NCBI GenBank assembly: GCA_900318355.1
Contig: ONKE01000015.1
Span: 1-39,535 of the forward strand
Length of the DNA: 39,535 nt
Origin: an uncultured Bacteroidales bacterium
GTDB taxonomy: Bacteria > Bacteroidota > Bacteroidia > Bacteroidales > UBA932
Direction of reading: 5' to 3'
The translations under genes and the position numbers were made by a program. Under the pieces are notes generated by a model. The model was given only the letters and a program-made list of their open reading frames with translations. It was not told the origin of the DNA and searched no databases. Positions 9,769 through 39,534 of this stretch are shown here, piece after piece (the stretch's first letter is position 1; each line of letters opens with the position of its first letter).

Positions 9769-10658
9769 GACAGTTCGGGAAATAGTCCGAAAAGGGCGGA
9801 GCCGCTGCCGGACATGGCAGCATAGACGGCGCCGCGTTCGTAGAGCGCCTCCTTGTAGCGCGCAAGGGTGGGATGGACGGCGAAAACAGTTGTTTCAAAG
9901 TCGTTTACGAGGCATTCGCGCCACCTCTCAACCGGGCGACTAAGGACGTCGGTGAGCGAATTGCCGGGCGTCCGCTCCATCGGAACGATGCCGCGGTAGG
10001 CCTCGGCCGTGGAGACCGAGATGCCCTCGGGCACTATGGCTTCGATTCGGTAACGGGCGCCGCTCCTAAGGACGATGCTGCCGTCCGGCGCGAGGCGCAT
10101 CCCGTCCCATTGCGAAAGCACCTCTCCGCGCCCCGTCCCGAGCATCGGACAGTCGTAAACAAAAAAGGCACAGTCGCTTCCGAGTCTGGATGCGTAGCCC
10201 GCCAGGGCTTCGTCCGAGAGGTCGAGGCCGAAAAGCCCGGCCACCATTTTGAGGGCGAAAGCCGCATCGGAGCTGCCGCCGCCAAGTCCGGCGCCGACCG
10301 GGGCATGCTTCTCGAGATAGATCTTGACGGGCGGAAGATGGAAGTCGGCGTCCAGGAGCTGGTATGCCCTCACGGTAAGGTCGCCGGCCGGGTCCCAGCC
10401 GACGCCACCGGCCTTGCGGATGGTGACGAGGACTTTGCCGTCGGGGGTAATTGACTGGGAGATAGATTCTTCGCTTCGCTCAGAATGACAAGATGAATCC
10501 GGGAAGAGGGTGAGGAAGCTGTCGCCGGGGACGATCTCGAGGGTGTCCCGGATGCCGTGGAAGGGCACGAACAGCGTCTCGAGGTCGTGGAACCCGTCGT
10601 CGCGGCGCCGCAGGACGTGCAGCCCGAGATTGATCTTCACGTGAGGATGGCAAATCAT
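9765..10658 (-). CDS. ispE: 4-diphosphocytidyl-2-C-methyl-D-erythritol kinase
   Basis: IspE phosphorylates CDP-methylerythritol in the MEP isoprenoid pathway. From ATG 10658 it has 297 residues. An open frame extends 56 codons further upstream, but that part overlaps sufD and has no family similarity. GHMP-kinase motifs are present: KINLGLHV (8-15), the ATP-binding PVGAGLGGGSSDAA (120-133), catalytic Asp in LGSDCAFFV (D162), and MSGSGSALFG near the end. Residues 57-65 (CHSERSEES) are encoded by a dispersed repeat sequence inserted in frame, in a variable surface segment before the ATP site. The start overlaps the sufD stop by four bases (ATGA), and the stop overlaps the tsaE start the same way. 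Confidence 0.95.
   Translation of the reverse strand: MICHPHVKINLGLHVLRRRDDGFHDLETLFVPFHGIRDTLEIVPGDSFLTLFPDSSCHSERSEESISQSITPDGKVLVTIRKAGGVGWDPAGDLTVRAYQLLDADFHLPPVKIYLEKHAPVGAGLGGGSSDAAFALKMVAGLFGLDLSDEALAGYASRLGSDCAFFVYDCPMLGTGRGEVLSQWDGMRLAPDGSIVLRSGARYRIEAIVPEGISVSTAEAYRGIVPMERTPGNSLTDVLSRPVERWRECLVNDFETTVFAVHPTLARYKEALYERGAVYAAMSGSGSALFGLFPELS
10465..10489 (-). repeat. Dispersed-repeat sequence inserted in frame within ispE
   Basis: On the minus strand this reads GTCATTCTGAGCGAAGCG followed by AAGAATC. The ends ATTCT/AGAAT are inverted repeats around a GAGCGAAGCG core. I recognise this as a very common small interspersed element in many bacteria, usually intergenic; translated, it gives the tell-tale peptide CHSERSEES. 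Here it sits inside a coding gene without breaking the frame. No second copy was seen in this window. Confidence 0.7.
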
Positions 10659-11239
10659 AGGCTTCTGACGGCGTTTTCGATTTCTTCGGCGCGGTCTTCG
10701 GGGGTGACTCCGGAGAGGAACGACAGAATCTGCAGGGTGCGGGCTTCCTGCTCCGGAATGCCGCGCGAGCGCATATAGAACCGGGCCTCTTCGTCCAGCC
10801 GTCCGACCGTCGAGCCGTGGGAACATTTCACGTCATCGGCGTAAATCTCCAGCTGCGGCTGGCTTTCGGCGCGGGCACCGGTTGAAAGGAGTATGGAATG
10901 ATTTTCCTGCGTGGCGTCGGTCTGCTGGGCCTCGGGGGCCACGATGATGGTGCCCTCGAAGCGGACGTCGGCATCGCCGAAGACGATCCCGCGGAAATTC
11001 TGCCGCGAGACGCACCCTGGGGCCATGTGGTGCATGACCACGCGGAAACGCACCTTGTCGCTCCCGCCGCAAATGTATAGACCGCGCAGGTTCACTTCCG
11101 CCCCCGGCCCCGTAAGGTCGATGGTGATATCAAAATCGTGCGATTCGCCGGGCAGGGTAACAAACTGGAGATCAAGCTTCTGCCCTTCTCCAACCTGATA
11201 CTGCCCCCGGGGAGGCGCAATATAATGTCCGTGTCCCAT
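10655..11239 (-). CDS. sufD: Short SufD-like Fe-S cluster assembly protein
   Basis: SufD pairs with SufB and SufC in the SufBC2D scaffold that builds Fe-S clusters. This version has only 194 residues; SufD proteins normally have about 400-450. What remains is the beta-helix core: GAEVNLRGLYICGGSDKV, the HHMAPGCVSRQNFRG stretch, and the hallmark C-terminal motif DVKCSHGSTVGRLDEEARFY with its conserved His. The N-terminal helical domain and part of the core are absent, and sufC ends four bases before the ATG, so there is no room for them. The frame is clean, so it looks like a reduced form rather than a recent decay product. The stop overlaps the ispE start. Confidence 0.88.
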   Translation of the reverse strand: MGHGHYIAPPRGQYQVGEGQKLDLQFVTLPGESHDFDITIDLTGPGAEVNLRGLYICGGSDKVRFRVVMHHMAPGCVSRQNFRGIVFGDADVRFEGTIIVAPEAQQTDATQENHSILLSTGARAESQPQLEIYADDVKCSHGSTVGRLDEEARFYMRSRGIPEQEARTLQILSFLSGVTPEDRAEEIENAVRSL

Positions 11240-11243
11240 GGCG

Positions 11244-11987
11244 TCAGAATTGGTCGAATCCGCTGCGCTCGATGGCGTCGATGATTTCCCTGCCGCCGGT
11301 TGCGACTATGCGCCCGGCCTTCAGCACGTGGACGACGTCAGGCACCACATAGTCCAGCAGCTTCTGGTAGTGGGTGATGATGATCGCCGATTTCTCGGGC
11401 GTGTGGAGCGCGTTGACCCCTTCTGCGACAATCTTTAGGGCATCCACGTCCAATCCGCTGTCGGTCTCGTCCAATATGGCCAGAGTCGGGTCGAGCATCG
11501 CCATCTGGAATATCTCACCACGCTTTTTCTCGCCGCCGGAGAACCCCACGTTGACCTCGCGCTTGGCAAATTCGGGCTTCATTCCCACCAAGGCCATCTT
11601 TTCGCGCATCAGCTTGAGGAATTCGCCGCCGGAAAGCGCGGGCAGCCCTGCAGCCTGCCTGTGGGCCGCTACGGCAGTCTTCATGAAGTTTGTGATGCTG
11701 ACTCCGGGAATTTCCACGGGATACTGAAAAGACATGAAAATCCCGGCCGTAGCCCTTTCTTCCGGGGCAAGGGCGAGCAGGTCGCGCCCGTCAAAGACGA
11801 TGGAGCCGTCTGTCACCGCATATTGCGGCTTGCCGGTCAGGACGGCCGAGAGGGTGCTCTTGCCGGCGCCGTTGGGGCCCATCACGGCGTGGATTTCGCC
11901 ACGGCGTATGGTAAGGTCCACTCCATGAAGGATTTCCTTGCCTTCTATACCTGCGTGCAGGTTTTTTATTTCCAGTAAGTTATTCAT
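11244..11987 (-). CDS. sufC: Fe-S cluster assembly ATPase SufC
   Basis: SufC is the ABC-type ATPase that drives conformational change in the SufBCD scaffold in the cytoplasm. The 247 residues are typical. Walker A is GPNGAGKST (37-45). The Q-loop region ISMSFQYP-like segment reads GIFMSFQYPVEIPGVS, the signature is VGFSGGEKKRGEIFQM, and Walker B with the SufC-specific tail is LAILDETDSGLDVDAL. A switch His follows in IIITHYQKLLDYV. Its ATG lies inside the 3' end of the upstream pnuC-like gene (8-base overlap), which points to coupled translation. Confidence 0.97.
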   Translation of the reverse strand: MNNLLEIKNLHAGIEGKEILHGVDLTIRRGEIHAVMGPNGAGKSTLSAVLTGKPQYAVTDGSIVFDGRDLLALAPEERATAGIFMSFQYPVEIPGVSITNFMKTAVAAHRQAAGLPALSGGEFLKLMREKMALVGMKPEFAKREVNVGFSGGEKKRGEIFQMAMLDPTLAILDETDSGLDVDALKIVAEGVNALHTPEKSAIIITHYQKLLDYVVPDVVHVLKAGRIVATGGREIIDAIERSGFDQF

Positions 11988-12609
11988 TCTTCTTGTATAA
12001 TTTCATCCAGGACGCCAGAGACCACAGGCCGTTGACCAGGTAAAGGGCGCAGACAATAGGCATAAATATGTGTCCTACAGATATATGCAGGACGATTTGG
12101 GCGAAGTTGACAACCAGCCAGGCTATCCAGCAGTCCCACTTCTTGAGGGCCGAGAGGAGCTGCGCCATCAGGATGAGCACCGTCACGCAGGAGTCCAGGT
12201 AAGGGTGGGGATCGGCGGGGAAAAGCGCGTCCAGCGTCCAGCCCCACAGACCGGCCACCAGCAGCACCGAGACCGCGACCAGCCCGCGTTCCGGCCACGA
12301 CAACATGCTCACTTTCAGCGCAGAGGCATCTGCGGCGCTTTCCTCGTGCTTGCGGGGATGGGTCCAGCGCCAGTGCCCCATGATGTTGATGGCAAGCGAT
12401 ACCGGCTGCAGCAACAGGCTGGCATAGAGGCTCTTGTTCCAGAACATGAAGAACAGCGCCGCCGTGTAGAGGTAGCCGACCCAGAAATTGTATTTGGAAT
12501 TGCGCCCGGCCAGGAATACGCACACCAGACCGAGGGCCGATGTCACCACGTCGATGGCCAGTACCGGTTGCCCCCAGAGGGTAAACAGAACGTAATTTAT
12601 CCAGCTCAT
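11980..12609 (-). CDS. pnuC: PnuC-family vitamin transporter (nicotinamide riboside or thiamine)
   Basis: An inner-membrane transporter of the PnuC family, which imports nicotinamide riboside (PnuC), thiamine (PnuT) or riboflavin (PnuX) by facilitated diffusion. The 209 residues contain about seven hydrophobic segments. Family features are [18 protein letters not shown], the loop [20 protein letters not shown], and the C-terminal [19 protein letters not shown] followed by LYLVNG. Substrate cannot be decided by eye. No TPP or NAD riboswitch or related gene is adjacent. It lies between sufB and sufC, overlapping both (4 and 8 bases), so it is an integral member of the operon. Confidence 0.9.
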
Positions 12610-14036
12610 CCTACCGACCCCTCCAACGATACTTGAAGCAGTTTATTGGCCTCTACGGCAAATTCCATGGGCAGTTTCGACAGCACCTCGCGTGCGTATC
12701 CGCCCACTATGAGCCCGACGGCGTCTTCCGGAGCGATTCCGCGCTGTCCGAGGTAAAAGAGCTGTTCCTCAGATATCTTTGACGTAGTGGCTTCGTGCTC
12801 GACAACTGCCGTGGGATTGGCGCTGCGGATAACCGGGAAGGTGTGTGCGCCGCACTTCGAGCCTATCAAAAGACTGTCGCACTGGGAAAAGTTGCGTGCC
12901 CCTTCCGCCCCCGGCATCATCCTCACGAGCCCGCGGTAGCTGTTTTGGCTGCGTCCGGCGCTGATACCCTTGCTGACGATGCGGCTGCGCGTTCCGCGGC
13001 CGATATGGATCATCTTCGTTCCGGTGTCGGCCTGCTGGCAGTTGTTGGTTACCGCCACGGAGTAGAACTCGGAAGAGGAATAATCGCCCTTGAGGATGGT
13101 TGAGGGGTATTTCCACGTGATTGCGGAGCCCGTTTCGACCTGGGTCCAGCTCAGATGGGCCCCCTCATGGCAGATGCCGCGCTTGGTCACCAGGTTGAGG
13201 ATGCCGCCGCGCCCCTGGGCATCGCCCGGATACCAGTTCTGGACGGTGGAATACTTCACGTCGGCGTCCTTGAGGACGACAATCTCGACCACGGCCGCAT
13301 GGAGCTGGTTCTCGTCGCGCATCGGCGCCGTGCAGCCTTCCATGTAGCTGAGCGTGGAACCTTCGTCGGCCACGATGAGCGTGCGCTCGAACTGCCCGGT
13401 TCCGGCCGCGTTGATGCGGAAATAGCTCGACAGGTCCATCGGGCAGCGGACCCCCTTGGGAATATAGACGAAGGACCCGTCGCTGAAAACGGCGCTGTTG
13501 AGGGCGGCGAAATAGTTGTCGCCGGCCGGCACCACCGATGCTAAATACTTGCGTACCAGGTCGCCATGTTCGCGGACAGCCTCGGAGAATGAGCAGAAAA
13601 TGATGCCTTTTTCGGAGAGGGTCTTGCGGAAGGTGGTGGCTACCGACACGGAGTCGAACACGGCGTCCACGGCCACAACCCCGGCAAGCGCCTCGCGCTC
13701 ATGCAGGGGAATGCCGAGCTTCTCGAAAGTGCGGGCCAGTTCCGGGGCGATTTCCTTGGGCCGATCGGCGTCCTTCTTCGGCGCGGCGTAATAGATAATA
13801 TCTTGATAATCAATTTCCGGCAGGTCGAGATGCCCCCACTGCGGGGCCGGCATCTTCTGCCAGCGCCTGAATGCGTCGAGCCTGAACTCCAGCAGCCACG
13901 CGGGCTCCTGCTTCAAGGCCGAAATGGTGCGGATTACCTCCTCGTTCAAGCCTTTAGGCACGAATTCCTGCCGGATATCCGTGACAAACCCCTCTTTGTA
14001 CTGTCCCGAGGTAACTTCGCGCAGAATGTCTTCCAT
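12606..14036 (-). CDS. sufB: Fe-S cluster assembly scaffold protein SufB
   Basis: SufB is the main scaffold on which the Suf system assembles Fe-S clusters. The 476 residues are full length. Key motifs are [13 protein letters not shown] near residue 80, [16 protein letters not shown], the central [19 protein letters not shown], the cluster-ligand region [11 protein letters not shown] (with a conserved Cys) and [16 protein letters not shown] with its conserved His/Glu. The partner SufD downstream is unusually short, so SufB may carry most of the scaffold role. It starts three bases after the aroC stop and overlaps the pnuC-like gene by four bases. Confidence 0.97.
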
Positions 14037-14039
14037 AGG

Positions 14040-15116
14040 CTACAGCATGCGTGTAAGGTCGGCCAGGACGATGGCGGTCATAGCCTCCACGATGACGGGG
14101 GTGCGCAGGGCGATGCAGGCGTCGTGCCGTCCGGGGATTTCGAGCGTATCGATGCGTCCGGTGGCGAAATTGAAGGTCCGCTGCGCCTTTCCGATGGAGG
14201 ATGTCGGCTTGAAAGCCACCCTGAATACGATGGGATTGCCGTTGGTTATGCCTCCGTTGATGCCGCCGGCACCGTTTTTCGACGGATGGACGTTGGCGTG
14301 GATGGTCAGCGGGCCGTTGCCGGCATGGTCGAAGGGATCGTTGTGCTGGCTGCCCCTCATGCGTGCCGCCTTGAAGCCATCGCCGAATTCGATGCCGCGG
14401 ACCCCGGGAATGGCGAAAATTGCATGGCTGATGAGCGACTCAACCGAGTCGAAGAAAGGCTCGCCCAGACCGGCGGGAACATCGCCCACGCGGCATTCCA
14501 CTATGCCTCCCACGGAGTCTTTGTCGGCAATTGCCGCGTCCAGGACGTCGCGCCAGATTTCGGACGGACTGAGTTCGTCCTTCTCTTCTATGCCTCCGTC
14601 CGGCAATGCTTCTTCCGGCAGGTTCTTAAGCGCCTCGCTGCGGGAGACGCCGCCGACTTCCGTCAATTCGGCCGCTACGGTCATCCCGAGCATCTTCTTG
14701 GCCACGACGCCAGCCGCGACGATGGGAAGGGTGAGGCGTCCGGAGAAATGTCCGCCGCCGCGCGGGTCGTTGAAATCCAGCCACTTGATGCTGGCGGTGT
14801 AGTCGGCGTGGCCCGGGCGCGGGATGTCGTTGAAGAGCTTATAGTCGCCGCTGCGGGTGTTGCGGTTGCGGAAGATTATGGTCAGAGGAGCCCCTGTGGT
14901 GAAGCCGCCGTAGAGGCCGCTCAGTATTTCGGGTTCATCCGTCTCGATGCGCGGCGTAGTGCCCTTGGGACCGCTTTTGCGGCGCAGTATGTCAGCGCGG
15001 AAGTCCTCTTCGCTCAGCGAAATGCCGGGCTGCACGCCATCCACGACAACCCCTATGGCCTCGCCATGGGACTCCCCGAAAATGGAAACGCGGAATTTTC
15101 TGCCGAAAGTGTTCAT
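14040..15116 (-). CDS. aroC: Chorismate synthase
   Basis: AroC converts 5-enolpyruvylshikimate-3-phosphate to chorismate, the last common step of aromatic amino acid synthesis, using reduced FMN. From ATG 15116 it has 358 residues. An upstream in-frame ATG at 15149 lies inside the aroD-aroA gene and is not used. Motifs: FGESHGEAIG with the catalytic His near residue 16, RADILRRKSGPKGTTPR, the RPGHADYT region, the second catalytic-His region with RGSQHNDPF, and NGGITNGNPI near the end. The preceding gene ends two bases upstream, so three consecutive shikimate steps are encoded in tandem. Confidence 0.97.
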   Translation of the reverse strand: MNTFGRKFRVSIFGESHGEAIGVVVDGVQPGISLSEEDFRADILRRKSGPKGTTPRIETDEPEILSGLYGGFTTGAPLTIIFRNRNTRSGDYKLFNDIPRPGHADYTASIKWLDFNDPRGGGHFSGRLTLPIVAAGVVAKKMLGMTVAAELTEVGGVSRSEALKNLPEEALPDGGIEEKDELSPSEIWRDVLDAAIADKDSVGGIVECRVGDVPAGLGEPFFDSVESLISHAIFAIPGVRGIEFGDGFKAARMRGSQHNDPFDHAGNGPLTIHANVHPSKNGAGGINGGITNGNPIVFRVAFKPTSSIGKAQRTFNFATGRIDTLEIPGRHDACIALRTPVIVEAMTAIVLADLTRML

Positions 15117-15118
15117 AA

Positions 15119-17089
15119 TTAATTGTTTATTTGCTTCATCTCTTCCCATGCGGCGGGGAAGCCGGGGTAGGATTTACAGACGCAGGAGGTGTCGTCGATG
15201 GTGATGGGGCCGTCGGCGCCGAGGGCGGCGGTCTCGAGGGCCATGACCATGCGGTGGTCGTGACAGGATGTGTAGGAGCCGCCCTTTAGGAGGGTGCCGG
15301 TGAGCAGTCGGCAGGCAAGGCTGCGCCCTTCGATAATCAGACGGTCGCCCTTGATCCATGAGCGGACGCCCATCTGCCTGAGCATGGCCAGAATCGCGGC
15401 GCCCCTGTCGGTCTCTTTCGTGGCAAGGCGGCCGACTCCTTCCAGGGTGCTGGTGCCGCTGCAGAATGCCGCGAGGACGGCCGTAGCGGGAAACAGGTCG
15501 GGACAGTTGTTCAAATCCATGTTTATTGCCCTCAGAGGGGCTTTCTGGACGTGAATTATGCCCGTATCATCCTCTTCCGAGATGCTGGCGCCGGCCTCGG
15601 TGAGGATGTCCATGATGGAAAGGTCGGCCTGTAACGAGGTGGTGTCGAGGCCTTCGAGCTCCACGCGCCCGAAAACGGCTCCGGCCACTGCGAAATTGGC
15701 CGCTGCGCTCCAGTCGGCTTCAATGTCCACCTCGGCCGCCTTGAGGCGCTGCCCGCCGCGGATGTGGAAGGTTATGGCCTCGCAGAGGCTCCAGTCGCGT
15801 GTACGGACGAACTCTTCCCCGCCTTCCATCTCGCTTTCTATCCTGATGCCGAACTGCTTGAGTACGTCGACGGTGATGAACAGATAGGGGATGCTCTTGG
15901 GGTTGTTAAGGACCAGGGTGGAGTCTTCGCGGAGCAGCGGCAAGGCGGTAAGGAGGCCCGAGACGAGCTGGGAACCGTCGCTGCCGTCCACCTCGATCAA
16001 CCCGCCGTGGAGACGGCCTTTGACGGTGAGCGGAACCTTGACGGGATCGCTGTCGCTTTCGAGGTTAAGCCCGGCGGCCGCCATCATGGCCTTTGCCCCT
16101 TTCAGAGGGCGCTGGGTGAGGGTTTTTTCGCCGCTTATGGTCACTTCTGAACTTGCGAGAGCACCCATCAGAGGAATCATCAGGCGGGTCAGGAATCCGG
16201 ATTCGCCGGTGTGCAAACACTTGTCAGTAAATGCTTTGGTGTCGCGGCCTTCAATGGTCAGGGTGCTGTCGTCCACGGTGACTTTCGCGCCGAGCGCACG
16301 GGCGACGGCCAGGGCGGACTCGTTGTCGCCGCAGGTAGAGTAGCCGAACAGTCGGGAAGTGCCTTCGGCGAGGGAGGCTGCGATGATGGCACGCTGGGCG
16401 AAACTTTTGGACGACGGCATGGTAAGCGTCGGAGCGTCGAGAGGCTTGCGGTCGCCGTAGACGGCCTTGTACATCTCCCGTAGCGGCCACTGGCCGGGCG
16501 CGGCGGCTTCTTCTTCCGTGAGGGCGGCGTAGGTGTATGGCGCGCCTAGGCGAAGGCACTCCAGACGGGAGTTCCGTCCTGCTTCGCCCATGCAGAATGC
16601 GACGAGGTCGGTCTCGGTCTCATAGAGCCCAAGGACCTTCTCGCAATCGGCCTCGGAATGTGCCGTGGTGACGATTTTCACCACGTCGGCGCCAAGATGG
16701 CGGCACTTCTCGCAGAGGGCCTGGAGGGCGGGGAGGGAGTCGGTGCCGTCGAAGTCGTGCCATGAACGGATGAGGGCCGTGCCGCAATCGTGCGCCTCGC
16801 GGCGGATGCGCTTGCACATCATGGCCGGAGCCTCGAGCTCGAGGTCGACATAGGCTGCGCCGGCGTGGACAGCCCTTGTAAGCAGGGTCTCGGCCTGCTG
16901 GGCCGGCATGTTGTCGCCAACGCGGCACGTTGCAATGAGCGGGGTGTCGCAAGAACTGAACAGCTCGTCAACCTCTTCCAGCGTCAGGCTGCAGCGGTCC
17001 AGGCGGATTTCCGCCATCTCCACCATAGGGTCGTCCAGCGCTGAGAGAATCCCGTCGTAATCTTTATTTTGCAGGGTCGTACAAATCAT
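15119..17089 (-). CDS. aroDA: Bifunctional type I 3-dehydroquinate dehydratase / EPSP synthase fusion
   Basis: One 656-residue protein carries two shikimate-pathway enzymes. Residues 1-215 are a type I dehydroquinate dehydratase (AroD): AEIRLDRC (27-33), catalytic His111 in RSWHDF, and Schiff-base Lys138 in ADVVKIVTTAHS. Residues ~218-650 are EPSP synthase (AroA): MPSSKSFAQRA (Lys228), GESGFLTRLMIPLMG, DGSDGSQLVSGLL, the INMDLNNCPDLFP catalytic Asp region, LATKETDRGAA and the HDHRMVMA motif. All catalytic landmarks of both are present, so both should be active. No stop or frameshift lies at the junction. The fusion joins step three to step six of the pathway; steps four and five (AroE, AroK) are not in this window. 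Flanked by aroB (92 bases upstream) and aroC. Confidence 0.95.
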   Translation of the reverse strand: MICTTLQNKDYDGILSALDDPMVEMAEIRLDRCSLTLEEVDELFSSCDTPLIATCRVGDNMPAQQAETLLTRAVHAGAAYVDLELEAPAMMCKRIRREAHDCGTALIRSWHDFDGTDSLPALQALCEKCRHLGADVVKIVTTAHSEADCEKVLGLYETETDLVAFCMGEAGRNSRLECLRLGAPYTYAALTEEEAAAPGQWPLREMYKAVYGDRKPLDAPTLTMPSSKSFAQRAIIAASLAEGTSRLFGYSTCGDNESALAVARALGAKVTVDDSTLTIEGRDTKAFTDKCLHTGESGFLTRLMIPLMGALASSEVTISGEKTLTQRPLKGAKAMMAAAGLNLESDSDPVKVPLTVKGRLHGGLIEVDGSDGSQLVSGLLTALPLLREDSTLVLNNPKSIPYLFITVDVLKQFGIRIESEMEGGEEFVRTRDWSLCEAITFHIRGGQRLKAAEVDIEADWSAAANFAVAGAVFGRVELEGLDTTSLQADLSIMDILTEAGASISEEDDTGIIHVQKAPLRAINMDLNNCPDLFPATAVLAAFCSGTSTLEGVGRLATKETDRGAAILAMLRQMGVRSWIKGDRLIIEGRSLACRLLTGTLLKGGSYTSCHDHRMVMALETAALGADGPITIDDTSCVCKSYPGFPAAWEEMKQINN

Positions 17090-17181: not shown

Positions 17182-18414
17182 CTATAGCATCGAAACGGCT
17201 TCGGCTGCCGACATGGACTTTTCTTCGACGCGGCCCACTGCGGCGGGAAGGATGAAACGGACGGTGTCGCCTTCCGCTTTTTTGTCTTTTCCCATCGCTT
17301 CGCTGAGTTCGCCAGGACTGAAACGGCATGATACCGGGAGGCCGCACGCTTTGAAGTCGGCTTCAAGACGTTCCGCAAGGCCACGCTCTGCGACGCCGGC
17401 GTTTTCGGAGAGACGGGCTGCGAGGATAATGCCTGCGGCGACCGCCTCGCCGTGGGTCAGCTCCCTGTGGCCGCCATGGCAGCTGTCCTCGTGGCCCTCG
17501 TCGCCATGGCAACAATGGCCCTCTTCGTGCCCTTCTTCGCCGTGGCAGCAGTGATGTTCCTGGCCTTCGCCGTGATGGCCGCAGCCGCCATGGCGCCCGC
17601 AGCAACCGTGATGACCTTCAGAGAATTGCAGGGCTTCGATGGCATGGGCGAAAGTGTGGCCGAGGTTGAGGATGCGGCGCTCGCCCTTCTCAAAAGGGTC
17701 GCGCTCCACCACGCCTGCCTTGATGGCCGCAGCGCGACGCAGCAGCTCCGCCCACTGGTCGGCGTCGTCTTCGAAGATTGCCTGCCATGAGTCGCCATGG
17801 GCATTTTCGGCCGCCTGCATCTTGGAGAGCAGGGTTACGGCGCATTCGTAGCTGCCGTCGCCGTCGTCCAGCAGGAAGGTCTTGAGCATCTCGGCCGCGC
17901 CCGACAGGAAATCCCGGCGCTGGAGCGTCTTGAGCACCTCGGGGCAAATGAAGGTCCACGCGGGCTGGACTATCGCTCCGACCATGTTTTTGTAGCCGGC
18001 GAAGTTGACGCCAGTCTTGCCTCCGATGGCCGCGTCGACCTGCGCGAGAAGCGTCGTGGGGATGTTGGCATAGCGGATGCCGCGCTTATAGATGGAAGCG
18101 GCGAAACCGGTCAGATCGGTGGTTATGCCGCCGCCGACAGCAAGGAGAAGCGCCTCCCGCGAAGCCCCTGCATCCAGCAGCAGCGCGCAGAGCGACATGG
18201 CCGCATTGATGCTCTTGGCCTCTTCGGAAGTGTCGAAAGCGAAGCTCCTTACCACTCCGGGGACCATCTCGGTCACCTTGTCCGCCACCCAGGAGGCATT
18301 GCGGTCGAAGACCATGTAGATTTCCTTCTCGCCGGCCATGAGGGCCTTGACTTCGCTTAAATTGCGGGCGCTGACCACTCTGCAGACTTCCTTGCGTTCG
18401 ATATTGATTTCCAT
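17182..18414 (-). CDS. aroB: 3-dehydroquinate synthase with a His/Cys-rich insertion
   Basis: AroB converts DAHP to 3-dehydroquinate, using NAD and a divalent metal (zinc or cobalt). The 410 residues exceed the usual ~350-360. Motifs: LAVGGGITTDLTGFAAS (91-107), NIPTTLLAQVDAAIGGKTGVN, metal ligand Glu175 in SGAAEMLK, His253 in NLGHTF and His321 in THGEAVAAG. Between the last two ligands there are 67 residues instead of the 16 I recall for E. coli AroB. The extra ~51 residues hold 14 His and 8 Cys in 49 positions. The frame is unbroken and all catalytic motifs flank the insertion intact, so the enzyme is probably active. First gene of the minus-strand array; a -7 element lies about 20 bases upstream. 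Confidence 0.96.
   Translation of the reverse strand: MEINIERKEVCRVVSARNLSEVKALMAGEKEIYMVFDRNASWVADKVTEMVPGVVRSFAFDTSEEAKSINAAMSLCALLLDAGASREALLLAVGGGITTDLTGFAASIYKRGIRYANIPTTLLAQVDAAIGGKTGVNFAGYKNMVGAIVQPAWTFICPEVLKTLQRRDFLSGAAEMLKTFLLDDGDGSYECAVTLLSKMQAAENAHGDSWQAIFEDDADQWAELLRRAAAIKAGVVERDPFEKGERRILNLGHTFAHAIEALQFSEGHHGCCGRHGGCGHHGEGQEHHCCHGEEGHEEGHCCHGDEGHEDSCHGGHRELTHGEAVAAGIILAARLSENAGVAERGLAERLEADFKACGLPVSCRFSPGELSEAMGKDKKAEGDTVRFILPAAVGRVEEKSMSAAEAVSML
17467..17619 (-). other. His/Cys-rich metal-binding-like insertion domain of AroB
   Basis: Codons for AroB residues 266-316. The segment is almost only His, Cys, Gly, Glu and Asp, and holds a near-tandem unit HCCHGEEGHE / HCCHGDEGHE (288-297 and 300-309), preceded by HHGCCGRHGGCGHH (268-281). 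Composition resembles the metal-binding tails of SlyD or the His-rich loops of UreE and HypB. It replaces the short loop between metal ligands His253 and His321. Codons of the two units differ, so it is not a fresh DNA duplication. Confidence 0.85.
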
Positions 18415-19411: not shown

Positions 19412-19419
19412 TATCTTTG
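19412..19419 (+). promoter_or_regulatory. -7 promoter element of the btu operon
   Basis: TATCTTTG is an exact match to TAnnTTTG, with only a weak TTC at the -33 position. Predicted start is about 19424-19426, just ahead of the riboswitch P1 strand. The element abuts the left arm of the terminator hairpin. Confidence 0.6.
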
Positions 19420-19450
19420 CGGCGGATTCTGGTGAGTCCGCCGTTTTTTT
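19420..19450 (+). terminator. Terminator overlapping the start of the cobalamin riboswitch
   Basis: CGGCGGATTC-TGGT-GAGTCCGCCG is a 10-bp stem (one T-G pair), followed by seven T residues. It is 34 bases after the endonuclease-family stop and is an ideal intrinsic terminator. Its right arm and T-run are also part of riboswitch helix P2, and its left arm shares GATTC with P1. Transcripts from the btu promoter would begin inside the left arm, so they cannot form the full hairpin. Confidence 0.75.
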
Positions 19451-19598
19451 CGGCCGGACTTGAAAAGGGAAGCCGGTGAAAATCCGGAACTGTGCCCGCA
19501 GCTGTGAGTTCATCCTTTAGCGCTGCATTCTTGTGCCATTGCCGCCCAGCGGCGAGAAGGCGCAGCGTCGCGAACGAGTCAGAAGACCTGCCAGGGTC
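19425..19598 (+). promoter_or_regulatory. Cobalamin (adenosylcobalamin) riboswitch
   Basis: The conserved core reads AAAAGGGAAGCCGGTG, AAAATCCGGAACTGTGCCCG and, at the 3' end, the B12 box AGTCAGAAGACCTGCC. P1 pairs 19425-19432 (GATTCTGG) with 19591-19598 (CCAGGGTC), eight pairs with two wobbles. P2 is formed by AGTCCGCCG and CGGCCGGACT around the T-run. Binding of cobalamin is expected to lower expression of btuB-btuG-permease. The G/C-rich stretch 19611-19636 between the aptamer and the ATG is the likely expression platform, acting on translation, since no terminator follows. Confidence 0.95.
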
Positions 19599-19648
19599 AA
19601 GTCAAACCAAGCATGCGCCCGGGGGCAGGTGCGGCTGGATTTGTGAAA

Positions 19649-21625
19649 ATGCTACCGGCAATCGTATCCCTTGTCCTTGCGCTCAGTGTTGCGCAGGGCC
19701 CGACCATCCCCGTGGCCGACACCCTCAAGGCGTCGGTAGCCGACGGCCGTCGAGTGGCAAGGGTAAAGCTCAGCTCGGCAACTCCATCCATCCGCCTGGG
19801 CTCTGCCGCGATAGCCCGCAGCGGCGCCGACGGGCTCCACGAAATCCTGCGGACGCTGCCCGGCCTGGCGGTGAAGGACTATGGCGGGATAGGCGGGCTT
19901 AAGACCGTGTCGGTCAGGGGTTTCAGCTCGGCTCACACGGCGGTGTGCGTAGACGGTTTCCTCGTCAGCGACGCCCAGCGCGGCGGCATCGACCTGTCTG
20001 CATATAATCTGGGCAACACCAAGTCCATACTCGTTGAAATAGGCACTCCGGACGATCTTTTCAAGCCTGCCGGAGCGTTCTCTTCCGCCGGGGTCATCAG
20101 TCTTGAGGGCAAGCCTGCGCATACAGGCGCAGTGCCACTGAGGGCCTCTGCGGCGCTGACTGCGGGCTCTTTCGGCACGTGGAGGCCGGAGCTGAGGGTC
20201 GACGGCCGGATTGCCCGCGGATGGGCCGCCTCCGTGCGGGCCGGCTGGCTGCGTAGCGATGGAAACTATCCATTCCCGGGCAAGGTGCTCGTGGACGGTA
20301 AGCCTGCCGGCGACGCAACGTTGCGACGCGAGGGAAGCGACGTGTCCACGTTGAACACCGGACTTCGCATCGACGGACTGACGCCGCGCGGCGGGAAGGT
20401 GCTCCTTGCGGCCGAGTGGACCGGCGGCGAGCGGGGCCTGCCCGGGCCGGTGATATTCTACCGCCAAAATCCTACGGAGCGTCTGTGGGACAATGATTTG
20501 ACGGTGCGGAGCTCCTATGTCTGTCATTCATCTTCTTCATGGCGCTGGCGCACGGGCCTGTCATATCGGCGCCGTGCGACCCGCTACACCAATTCCGACG
20601 CGGCCTATCCCGAGCCGGTCGACGACCGATACCTCCAGCACAATGCCGACGTGAGCGCAACCGTCATGAAACCGTTCCCGCTCGGCGCGGGGCAAATCGT
20701 GCTCTCACTGGCCCAGGACCTTGTTTTCGACGCCCTCGACGCCAATGTCATTTCCGGGGATAATCCGCGCCGTCTGAGCAGCCTGAGCGCCGCGCATGTC
20801 CGGTACGACGGCCGCCGCTTGAAGCTGACTGCAGGCCTTTCGGCCACCGTGGTCGGCGAGCTGGCCGGGGATGCGCCCGACAAAAGCCGGCTGAGCCCGA
20901 GCCTGAGCGCCTCTTTCCTGCTGGCCAAAAACTTGAGGCTCAGGGCCTTCGTGAAAGACGGCTTCCGCGTCCCGACCTTCAGCGACCTCTACTACGACCA
21001 TTTCGGCACCATCCACCTTGTCCCGGAGAAGGCGCTCCAGACCGGCGCCGGCGCCACGTGGCAGTTCCAGGCGGGTGCAGCGGCATTTTCCATGACCGTG
21101 GACGGCTACTATAACCGCGTGAGGGACAAGCTCGTAGCCGTTCCGACCATGTTCACATGGCATATGCGCAATCTGGGCCGCGTGGACATGGCGGGAGCCG
21201 ATGTTTCCGCCGGAGCCGTGGTGCCGGTCTATGGCAAAAACGCCCTCAGGGTGGATGCGTCCTATTCTTTCCTCGATGCTCGGGACCTTTCCGACCCGTC
21301 GGCAAAGAACTACGGCCATCAGATTCAATATACTCCGCGCCACAGCGGTTCGCTCGCCGTTTCGTTCGGCGGCCCGGTCTACACGCTGGGTTACACCCTC
21401 ATGGCCATAGGCCGCAGGTGGTATCAGCCTCAGAATGTTCCCGAATACGAGTTGCCCGCCTGCCTGGACCATGGCGTCAGCGCCGGAGTGCGTTTCCCCG
21501 TCGGACGTGCCGCCGTGTCGCTTTCCGCCCAGGGGCTCAATCTCGCCGGACGGTGCTACGAACTTGTCCGCAGCTATCCCATGCCCGGGCGCCAATTCCG
21601 TATAACCATTAAAGTAACTATATGA
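19649..21625 (+). CDS. btuB: TonB-dependent outer-membrane cobalamin receptor, BtuB-like
   Basis: A TonB-dependent transporter that imports vitamin B12 or related corrinoids across the outer membrane. From ATG 19649 it has 658 residues, beginning with signal peptide MLPAIVSLVLALSVAQG. An upstream ATG at 19613 is in frame, but its 12 extra codons lie in the G/C-rich expression platform and spoil the signal peptide. The plug (about 30-150) has ILRTLPGLAVKDYGG, LKTVSVRGFSSAHTAVCVDG and IEVGTPDD-like IVEIGTPDD segments. The barrel contains FRVPTFSDLYYDHFG and ends near ITIKVTI. The riboswitch and the BtuG-like gene next to it identify the substrate class. The stop overlaps the next ATG (ATGA). 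Confidence 0.93.
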   Translation: MLPAIVSLVLALSVAQGPTIPVADTLKASVADGRRVARVKLSSATPSIRLGSAAIARSGADGLHEILRTLPGLAVKDYGGIGGLKTVSVRGFSSAHTAVCVDGFLVSDAQRGGIDLSAYNLGNTKSILVEIGTPDDLFKPAGAFSSAGVISLEGKPAHTGAVPLRASAALTAGSFGTWRPELRVDGRIARGWAASVRAGWLRSDGNYPFPGKVLVDGKPAGDATLRREGSDVSTLNTGLRIDGLTPRGGKVLLAAEWTGGERGLPGPVIFYRQNPTERLWDNDLTVRSSYVCHSSSSWRWRTGLSYRRRATRYTNSDAAYPEPVDDRYLQHNADVSATVMKPFPLGAGQIVLSLAQDLVFDALDANVISGDNPRRLSSLSAAHVRYDGRRLKLTAGLSATVVGELAGDAPDKSRLSPSLSASFLLAKNLRLRAFVKDGFRVPTFSDLYYDHFGTIHLVPEKALQTGAGATWQFQAGAAAFSMTVDGYYNRVRDKLVAVPTMFTWHMRNLGRVDMAGADVSAGAVVPVYGKNALRVDASYSFLDARDLSDPSAKNYGHQIQYTPRHSGSLAVSFGGPVYTLGYTLMAIGRRWYQPQNVPEYELPACLDHGVSAGVRFPVGRAAVSLSAQGLNLAGRCYELVRSYPMPGRQFRITIKVTI

Positions 21626-22686
21626 AAATGAAAAATTTGATTCTTAAGTTCGCGGTCATTGCCGCGGCCGTCGTTTTCGCCGTTTCCTGCGCCAAGGACG
21701 GCAAACCTTCCCAGAACGCCAATACCGGCGTGTATGTCCTCAATAATGGCTCCTTCGGGAAAAACAACGCCAACATCTGCCGTTACGACGTGGCTTCCGG
21801 CAAGGTCTCCGCCGACGCTTTCGCCCTTGCCAACGACGGTCTGGGCCTCGGCGACACCGCCCAGGATATCCTTGCCGTGGGCGACGAGATTTATATCAGC
21901 GTCAACGTTTCGCAGGTCATTTTCGTGACCGACCGCGACCTCAAGGTCAAGAAGACCATCACCGCCGAAGCCGGTGGCAACATACTGTCTCCGCGCTACC
22001 TGTGCTATGCCGGCGGCAAGGTCTATGTTACTTATTATGAGGGATTTCTCGGCGAAATCAACCCTTCAGACTATTCGTTGAGCATAACGCCCGTGGGCCC
22101 CAATCCCGACATGCTCGCGTTCCACGACGGGAAGATCTATACGGCCGATTCCGGCGGCTACCTTGAAACTCCCAACAACAGCATTTCCGTCGTCGACGTC
22201 GCCACTTTCAAGCGGACTGGCGAAATCGCCGTCAACAACAATCCCACCGCCATGGCCGTTTCCGCAGGCAAGCTCTTCGTCTTCAGTTTCGGCATCTACG
22301 GCGTGAGTCCGGCAAAGCTTCAGGCCATCGACCTGTCGGCGGCGAAGCCCGAGGCTAAAGACTTGGACTACAGCGATGTAACCGGCATCGCGGCTCGCGG
22401 CAACACCCTCTACGTGCTGTGCAGCGGCCATGACGAAAATTGGACTCCGCTGCCTGCCAGGGTCTACAAGTACGACGCGGCCGGAGATAAGAAGGACGGC
22501 GAATTCGTCACCGACGGCACCGTGATTCCCCAGGGCTATAGTATCTCCCTGAGCGACAACTACTTGTGGGTCGGCAATTCGGACTATGTCAACAACGGCG
22601 ACGTCTATGCCTTCGACCTCTCGAGCGGTAAACTCGTCGCCAAGTTCGACTGCGGCGGACTTAATCCTCTTAAGGTAATCGAGTAA
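21622..22686 (+). CDS. btuG: BtuG-like surface cobalamin-binding lipoprotein (beta-propeller)
   Basis: In Bacteroides, BtuG is a surface lipoprotein beta-propeller that binds cobalamin with very high affinity and passes it to BtuB. This 354-residue protein has a lipoprotein signal peptide (cleavage before Cys23, VSCAKDG), then the N-terminal motif NTGVYVLNNGSFGKNNAN, typical of the DUF5074/YncE-like group that includes BtuG. Repeated blades are visible (LAVGDEIYISVN, KIYTADSG, KLFVFSFG, NTLYVLCSG, NYLWVGNSD). It is translationally coupled to btuB by a 4-base overlap and lies under the cobalamin riboswitch. Assignment rests on fold-type repeats plus context. Confidence 0.85.
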   Translation: MKMKNLILKFAVIAAAVVFAVSCAKDGKPSQNANTGVYVLNNGSFGKNNANICRYDVASGKVSADAFALANDGLGLGDTAQDILAVGDEIYISVNVSQVIFVTDRDLKVKKTITAEAGGNILSPRYLCYAGGKVYVTYYEGFLGEINPSDYSLSITPVGPNPDMLAFHDGKIYTADSGGYLETPNNSISVVDVATFKRTGEIAVNNNPTAMAVSAGKLFVFSFGIYGVSPAKLQAIDLSAAKPEAKDLDYSDVTGIAARGNTLYVLCSGHDENWTPLPARVYKYDAAGDKKDGEFVTDGTVIPQGYSISLSDNYLWVGNSDYVNNGDVYAFDLSSGKLVAKFDCGGLNPLKVIE

Positions 22687-23471
22687 TGCTCAGTTTGTTG
22701 TACGTTCTTATCAGCGGCATCGCCCTGCCGGTCGGCGGCATACAGATGCAATATCTGTGGCGCAATCAGCTGGGCGATGTCTACAGCCTCGGCCTTGGCA
22801 GCGCCGCCTGTCTGGGTGCCGCCGCCGCGACCATGAGCGGCTGGTGTTCGCTGACGGTTGGAAGCTTCATCTGCACGCTGATCTGCACGCTGGTTTGCTT
22901 CGTCGTCACCATGAAGGTTTCCACGCAGAACCTCATCACTTTCGGCATCCTGTTCGGCACCTTCATCGGCTCGCTCGGCACCATCGTGGTGACCAACGCC
23001 CCCAACGGCGACCTGCTCAAGCAATACTATCTCTGGGGTGCGGCCAATTTCAACCTCGAGGGCGTGACCGCCGGCGACATAGTGTTCTCCCTGTGCCTTT
23101 TCGCCGCCGGACTCGCCGCAGCGCTCTTCTGGGCGGGCGACCTGTCGAGCCATTTCCGTGGCGAAACCGAGCTTTCCAATTTCCGCAAGGCGCTTAGCCT
23201 CCTGATGATAATGTTCCTCGTGACTTCGGCCGTAAGCATCTGCGGACCAATCGGTTTTATCTCCCTCGGCGTCCCCAACCTGAGCCGCATCCTCTGCAAG
23301 GACACCGACATCCGCAAGCACTACCTCATCTCCAGCCTCATGGGCGTAGGCCTGCTGCTGATAACCTATCTGGTCGTCAAATACGTCTCTTTCGGCATCT
23401 ATCTCCCCGTCAGCGCCACCATGGCCATCATCGCCCTCCCCCTGATGGCCATCACCTTCCGCAGAGCCTGA
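22686..23471 (+). CDS. FecCD/BtuC-family ABC permease, N-terminally short
   Basis: An inner-membrane permease of the BtuC/FecCD type that imports cobalamin or iron-siderophores. It has 261 residues against about 330 normally. The match begins at the family block usually read GxxLxxxGxxxQxxxRNPL, here ISGIALPVGGIQMQYLWRNQ; the first membrane helix and RxPR motif that should precede it are missing. Family features retained include GLGSAACLGAAAA, the ICGPIGFISLGVPNLSRIL segment that contacts the ATPase, and the C-terminal helix pair. The TAATG overlap with btuG fixes the start. No BtuD ATPase or BtuF binding protein is encoded next to it, so partners must be elsewhere. Cobalamin is favoured by the riboswitch. 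Confidence 0.82.
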   Translation: MLSLLYVLISGIALPVGGIQMQYLWRNQLGDVYSLGLGSAACLGAAAATMSGWCSLTVGSFICTLICTLVCFVVTMKVSTQNLITFGILFGTFIGSLGTIVVTNAPNGDLLKQYYLWGAANFNLEGVTAGDIVFSLCLFAAGLAAALFWAGDLSSHFRGETELSNFRKALSLLMIMFLVTSAVSICGPIGFISLGVPNLSRILCKDTDIRKHYLISSLMGVGLLLITYLVVKYVSFGIYLPVSATMAIIALPLMAITFRRA

Positions 23472-39446: not shown

Positions 39447-39534
39447 TGGTGCCCGAGGCCGGGCTCGAACCGGCACGTCTTTAAAGGACACAGGATTTTG
39501 AGTCCAGCGCGTCTACCAATTCCGCCACTCGGGC
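39447..39534 (-). tRNA. tRNA-Leu (anticodon CAA)
   Basis: Reads GCCCGAGTGGCGGAATTGGT on the minus strand, with acceptor arm GCCCGAG/CTCGGGC, discriminator A and encoded CCA (39447-39449). The anticodon loop CTCAAAA (39502-39496) has CAA at 39500-39498. A long variable arm and T-arm GGTTCGAGCC complete a class II leucine tRNA. One T-T mismatch is in the anticodon stem. Confidence 0.95.

Follow-up and report, generated by a model that had tools for sequence, protein, structure and literature searches.

AroB, or 3-dehydroquinate synthase (DHQS), is an early enzyme of aromatic amino acid synthesis. The closest described counterparts of the AroB segment that we report here are found on other proteins. 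The tail of E. coli SlyD holds 13 His and 6 Cys together with many carboxylates and binds up to 7 Ni, according to the excerpt of PMC7840056 that we draw on. The same excerpt describes HspA, the GroES homologue of H. pylori, whose lineage-specific His/Cys extension behaves as a nickel sequestration domain. In HypB, UreG and the COG0523 proteins, optional His stretches are tied to metal storage or delivery in the parts of PMC2770081 that concern them.

In the window, by which we mean the whole stretch of 39,535 nucleotides that was analysed, a His/Cys-rich loop interrupts AroB. With 14 His and 8 Cys and its many carboxylates the loop resembles the SlyD tail as that tail is described in the excerpt, and the likeness to metal tails of the SlyD type proposed in the initial annotation holds. 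Judged by its composition and by its low predicted pLDDT, it is a His/Cys/acid-rich disordered segment, as is required of a SlyD tail. It differs in being an internal loop of a metalloenzyme, whereas the segment of SlyD is C-terminal, and AroB has no FKBP domain, only DHQS domains having been found. HspA, so far as the excerpt describes it, is alike in being a housekeeping protein with a His/Cys segment peculiar to its lineage, but the segment of HspA is C-terminal and is carried by a co-chaperonin instead of a metalloenzyme. HypB, UreG and COG0523 proteins share with this AroB a variable tract on a conserved core. In the examples shown in the source these His tracts lack comparable Cys, and the proteins are GTPase metallochaperones which serve another enzyme; AroB has no G3E GTPase domain of the kind found in HypB and COG0523.

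The aroB gene lies at 17182..18414 (-) and encodes 410 amino acids in a long-loop form, an assignment based on Pfam, NCBIfam and fold matches. Both Pfam domains score above their cut-offs (DHQ_synthase, PF01761, 132.1 bits; DHQS_C, PF24621, 108.8 bits), and the best PDB fold matches of the model are DHQS structures. The NCBIfam model TIGR01357 reaches 288.9 bits, below its cut-off of 305, and matches in two stretches split by the loop. We read this shortfall as an effect of the insertion and of divergence, because the fold, the ligands and the gene neighbours all agree with AroB. From known DHQS structures we take the metal (zinc) ligands to be Glu175 in GAAEMLK (17890..17892 (-)), His253 in GHTF (17656..17658 (-)) and His321 in HGEAV (17452..17454 (-)), the last of these four residues past the end of the loop. 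All three are invariant in 13 of 13 aligned AroBs, and so are the glycines G94-G96.

The AlphaFold2 model has a mean pLDDT of 84.0 and a pTM of 0.84, with 29 of its 41 ten-residue blocks at a pLDDT of at least 85, while residues 271-314 fall below 50. In the model the helix from His253 extends to residue 272, a disordered stretch follows and the next helix begins at His321. The catalytic core is thus predicted, with confidence, to be intact, and the loop to be disordered. Since the next predicted helix opens with His321, the C-terminal end of the loop would be tethered beside the metal, and from this adjacency we infer that the loop could reach the metal site. Known AroBs have the same core, the same three ligands and aroDA and aroC as neighbours. 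The difference lies in the stretch from His to His, which is 17-19 residues long there and 68 residues long and His/Cys-rich here.

We draw the loop as AroB residues 265-317 (17464..17622 (-)), slightly wider than the residues 266-316 (17467-17619 (-)) marked in the initial annotation. Its 53 residues are made up of 15 Gly, 14 His, 9 Glu, 8 Cys, 2 Ser, 2 Arg, 2 Asp and 1 Gln, which amounts to 22 His and Cys and 11 Asp/Glu. The count of 14 His and 8 Cys, the spacing of 68 residues between His253 and His321 and the presence of two HCCHGxEGHE units (HCCHGEEGHE and HCCHGDEGHE) had all been noted before and were found again. The spacing of 17 given for E. coli AroB in the initial annotation agrees with the solved chains of Providencia (6lk2) and Vibrio (3okf), which both count to 17. 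The loop therefore has 51 extra residues compared with the solved AroBs, or 49 compared with the spacing of 19 that is usual among relatives. Its enrichment in His and Cys is confirmed and statistically outstanding. Against the rest of AroB, 22 of 53 residues give a binomial P of ~1e-20, and a P of 2e-11 results when 22 of 60 is set against the His and Cys frequency of 6.8% pooled over the 187 other loops read at this site, both values being overstated because they ignore the repetition within the loop. A comparison of the loop alone with PDB sequences returned 0 matches up to E 10.

To see how the site varies, the same stretch was read in relatives. Of 400 genomes sampled from the genus, 370 gave an AroB match. 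The census loci were the best-scoring matches and long-looking frames and not a random draw; 211 loci gave 188 distinct stretches, after 21 repeats of the same stretch and two unreadable loci had been dropped (L002, which is truncated, and L210, which lacks the first metal His). The same genus or four ruminant-type MAGs account for 168 of the 188 loops, the window's included. Across this chosen set the His-to-His spacing ranges from 13 to 72 with a median of 19, and it is at least 30 in 22 loops and at least 40 in 8. Long and dissimilar inserts (spacing 47-72) are present at the same loop in L202, L084, L034 and L194. The insert of L202 (72) is rich in Ala, Pro and Ser, that of L084 (67) in Gly, Ala and Arg, and that of L034 (54) in Gly and Pro. 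In a quick tree L034 is sister to L168, which has a spacing of 18 (support 99), and L202 to L045, which has a spacing of 19 (support 88); the position of L084, whose branch is long, is unsure. Long and short loops found as sisters indicate that the length of this loop changes fast, and the hypervariable length in the genus indicates that insertion is tolerated here.

Wide variation in length and make-up means that an insertion at this site is in itself no sign of function. The loop could therefore be a neutral low-complexity expansion at a tolerant site, rich in His, Cys, Gly and Glu by accident and without any role. Inserts that come and go as fast as in the two sister pairs would fit such an origin, and the expansion of a 12-codon unit would leave fewer independent residues in need of explanation. 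What speaks against it is the composition, as His and Cys together make up 6.8% of the residues pooled from the 187 other loops and 4.4% in the 21 others with a spacing of at least 30, and the fact that the repeat units within the loop differ almost solely at third codon positions. We regard a neutral origin as somewhat unlikely. After the 22 His and Cys of the window's loop the next highest count among the other loops is 3. The initial annotation had proposed to count the homologues in which over 40 residues are inserted between the two ligands, with 10 or more His and Cys among them; in the census there is one among 188, the window's own. It is only the His/Cys content, and not the length, that sets this loop apart.

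The internal repeat gives a second view of the loop. Unit 1, HCCHGEEGHEEG, is encoded at 17518..17553 (-), and unit 2, HCCHGDEGHEDS, directly after it at 17482..17517 (-). The top 10-residue repeat is the pair HCCHGEEGHE and HCCHGDEGHE. Shuffling the loop residues (n=3000) matched the observed repeat with P 0.006 for 9-mers, 0.002 for 10-mers and 0.0003 for 12-mers. The two 10-codon units are unlike at 7 of their 10 third codon positions and identical at all 20 first and second positions. The 12-codon pair HCCHGEEGHEEG and HCCHGDEGHEDS shows 8 third-position differences and 1 first-position difference, an excess at third positions with P 0.003 in a neutral simulation that made equally many changes and kept an amino-acid identity no lower than that of the pair. 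Beginning two codons earlier is the 12-mer pair that matches best; its members differ at 1 first, 1 second and 9 third codon positions. The His codons of the loop are evenly divided (7 CAT and 7 CAC), unlike a simple slippage run. These numbers come from a small test of 10-12 codons in a single sequence, with the pair picked by its amino-acid likeness, and should the likeness have arisen by chance, the pattern would carry no message about selection. With this caution, the codon pattern suggests an old duplication under protein-level selection. Differences confined, in the 10-codon units, to third positions argue for a duplication that was kept, and against junk or an assembly error. As the loop is known from one genome, a selection test across species is impossible. 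We also considered an antisense ORF at 17452-17790 (+) as a constrained product and rejected it, because the variable third positions of AroB are the first codon positions of the antisense frame in register.

The possibility that the loop is an artefact of assembly or binning comes from the nature of the source, a draft genome of 2.31 Mb in 77 contigs. The reading frame is open across the loop, however, with conserved sequence on either side, and the conserved AroB C-terminus resumes after it. The insertion moreover sits at a naturally variable site. Imperfect repeats make a collapse or a false expansion unlikely. An artefact is in our judgement very improbable. Among the observations that the initial annotation named as counting against its interpretation is that the loop is absent from close relatives and breaks down as an assembly error. 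The loop does not break down, and its absence holds for those relatives in which the loop can be read. In the quick tree the sister of the window's AroB (support 100) is that of genome G014, which is 70% identical to it over residues 1-196. The G014 contig breaks off at 7314 bases, shortly past the match and ahead of the loop; a search of G014 for the rest of the gene gave no match, an outcome that by itself carries no weight.

A second loop of this kind was sought in three overlapping genome samples, drawn from the genus, the family and the phylum, with the loop plus flanking sequence as query. None was seen among the matches listed in the genus sample, where 55 of 400 genomes matched, or in the family sample, where 198 of 398 matched, the own genome being included in both counts. 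The phylum search, which is sensitive only to loops that resemble the window's, matched 2 of 395 genomes without a second loop; these are the own genome and L191, where the match runs through the AroB flank and the spacing is 16. The other matches that were read also run through AroB flanks, except for one loop-only match in G029 (contig C10). As a His/Cys protein this match was rejected, for its frame contains a stop codon and overlaps an open frame of 400 codons read from the same strand. Within the own genome, HCCHG-coding sequence is confined to the AroB loop, and no other sequence resembling the loop was found. A scan of viral_contigs gave 2 stretches and no relative, and among the 17 records of a plasmid search none covers 80% of the query, the 5 listed standing at 13%. 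In the literature searched, no dehydroquinate synthase is described as histidine-rich or His-rich, with a single co-mention of AroB and histidine-rich, and no His-rich superoxide dismutase was found as a precedent. The proposal that such a loop may be new to AroB holds for the samples and the literature searched. The protein combines a known enzyme with a segment of a known metal-binding type, inserted where our searches turned up no other.

Our preferred reading is that the loop is a disordered, SlyD-tail-like metal-binding segment which buffers metal at the AroB active site, and we hold its chances to be close to even. The precedents of SlyD, HspA and the HypB type lead us to infer that the AroB loop could bind several divalent ions. 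A role in metal handling is plausible and is partly undercut by the hypervariable insertion site. The proposed course of events would begin with an AroB loop that accepts inserts of many lengths and compositions in the genus. In this lineage an insert of ~49 residues may have turned metal-binding and then been retained. Such a loop might load several ions of the Zn/Co/Ni type loosely and act as a tethered local buffer, from which the AroB site would be supplied when cytosolic metal is scarce; under metal excess it may also serve as a sink. With the loop end four residues from His321, metal could stay available for the AroB site. Metal binding, transfer of metal to the site and a benefit to the cell would all be part of this scheme. 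A more specific version, in which the loop acts as a metallochaperone in cis that gathers Zn/Co from the cell and hands it over to the active site, so that AroB is metal-self-sufficient under scarcity, seems to us rather unlikely.

Should the loop indeed feed its own site, it would offer a simple and testable example of how a metalloenzyme evolves its metal supply. A SlyD-like segment would then have grown at a loop that already tolerated insertions, which would show hypervariable loops as raw material for new functions. The unrelated inserts of relatives at the same spot offer natural controls.

Another explanation is that the loop is a general metal sink for the storage or detoxification of Ni, Co, Zn or Cu, with AroB as a mere carrier whose own site is unaffected. 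The composition of the loop, similar to that of SlyD as far as the excerpt describes it, would suit this function. In the own genome nothing else like the loop came up in a similarity and motif search, which is not a whole-proteome count, and the HypB, the CobW/ZigA-like GTPase and the three FKBP matches of this genome have at most 4 His and Cys per 40 residues. In all 30 genus loci read, however, HypB is without a His stretch, in genomes that have no such AroB loop. Of 300 genomes of the genus, 126 have a HypB scoring above its cut-off, the own one included, and in the best 30 loci of these 126 genomes no His stretch was found, with at most 3 His per 20 residues. The idea that the loop substitutes for a HypB lacking a His stretch was rejected, since all 30 HypB loci read are His-poor and there is no sign of the loop replacing a missing Ni store. 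We consider a general sink improbable.

The 8 Cys of the loop include three CC pairs, which raises the question whether disulfides formed by these could gate AroB activity, making the loop a redox or thiol sensor. Metal hand-over and a metal or redox sensor had been put forward in the initial annotation as roles that the loop may have. Such a sensor would leave the His content unexplained. The closest named relatives by sequence are Bacteroidia/Bacteroidales MAGs, of which 3 of 4 are titled rumen or omasum; as gut Bacteroidales they are presumably anaerobes, which speaks against redox gating as well. We find this the hardest of the explanations to credit.

The genes that follow aroB in the window give its shikimate context. 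An aroD-aroA fusion of 656 amino acids (type I dehydroquinase and EPSP synthase; 15119..17089 (-), Pfam) adjoins aroB, and aroC, chorismate synthase (14040..15149 (-), Pfam and NCBIfam), comes next. No NCBIfam model for an aroD-aroA fusion came up for the 656-aa protein. Among 95 loci of relatives, not all of them from different genomes, 77 have an aroDA match within their short flanking sequence. Single near-full-length tblastn matches indicate the fusion in the relatives L057, L058, L059 and L067. In L002, the locus of the sister genome G014, aroB is divergent from aroDA, whereas both are on the same strand in the window. After aroC, on the same strand (10655-14036 (-)), there are sufB, a pnuC-like nicotinamide mononucleotide transporter gene, sufC and a short SufBD-core gene (sufD-like). 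Because the gap between aroC and sufB is 3 bases, genes for shikimate synthesis and for Fe-S assembly may belong to one operon. In L057, too, there is a sufB match downstream of aroDA.

No inverted repeats of at least 8 bases were found upstream of aroB. About 1 kb away and divergent from it, a Cobalamin riboswitch (RF00174, 104.6 bits) precedes a TonB receptor, a DUF5074 protein and a FecCD permease. From these matches the cluster (19413-23471 (+)) is probably a B12-uptake operon; no ABC ATPase was found among the ORFs next to it. Among the relatives, L210 (G357:C59:21400-22700) encodes a second AroB-like protein, in which GGIFCDAIE replaces GHTFAHAIE and the first metal His is lost, and its genome holds another AroB, L211, beside it. 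At the end of the window there is a tRNA gene (39450-39534 (-), RF00005).
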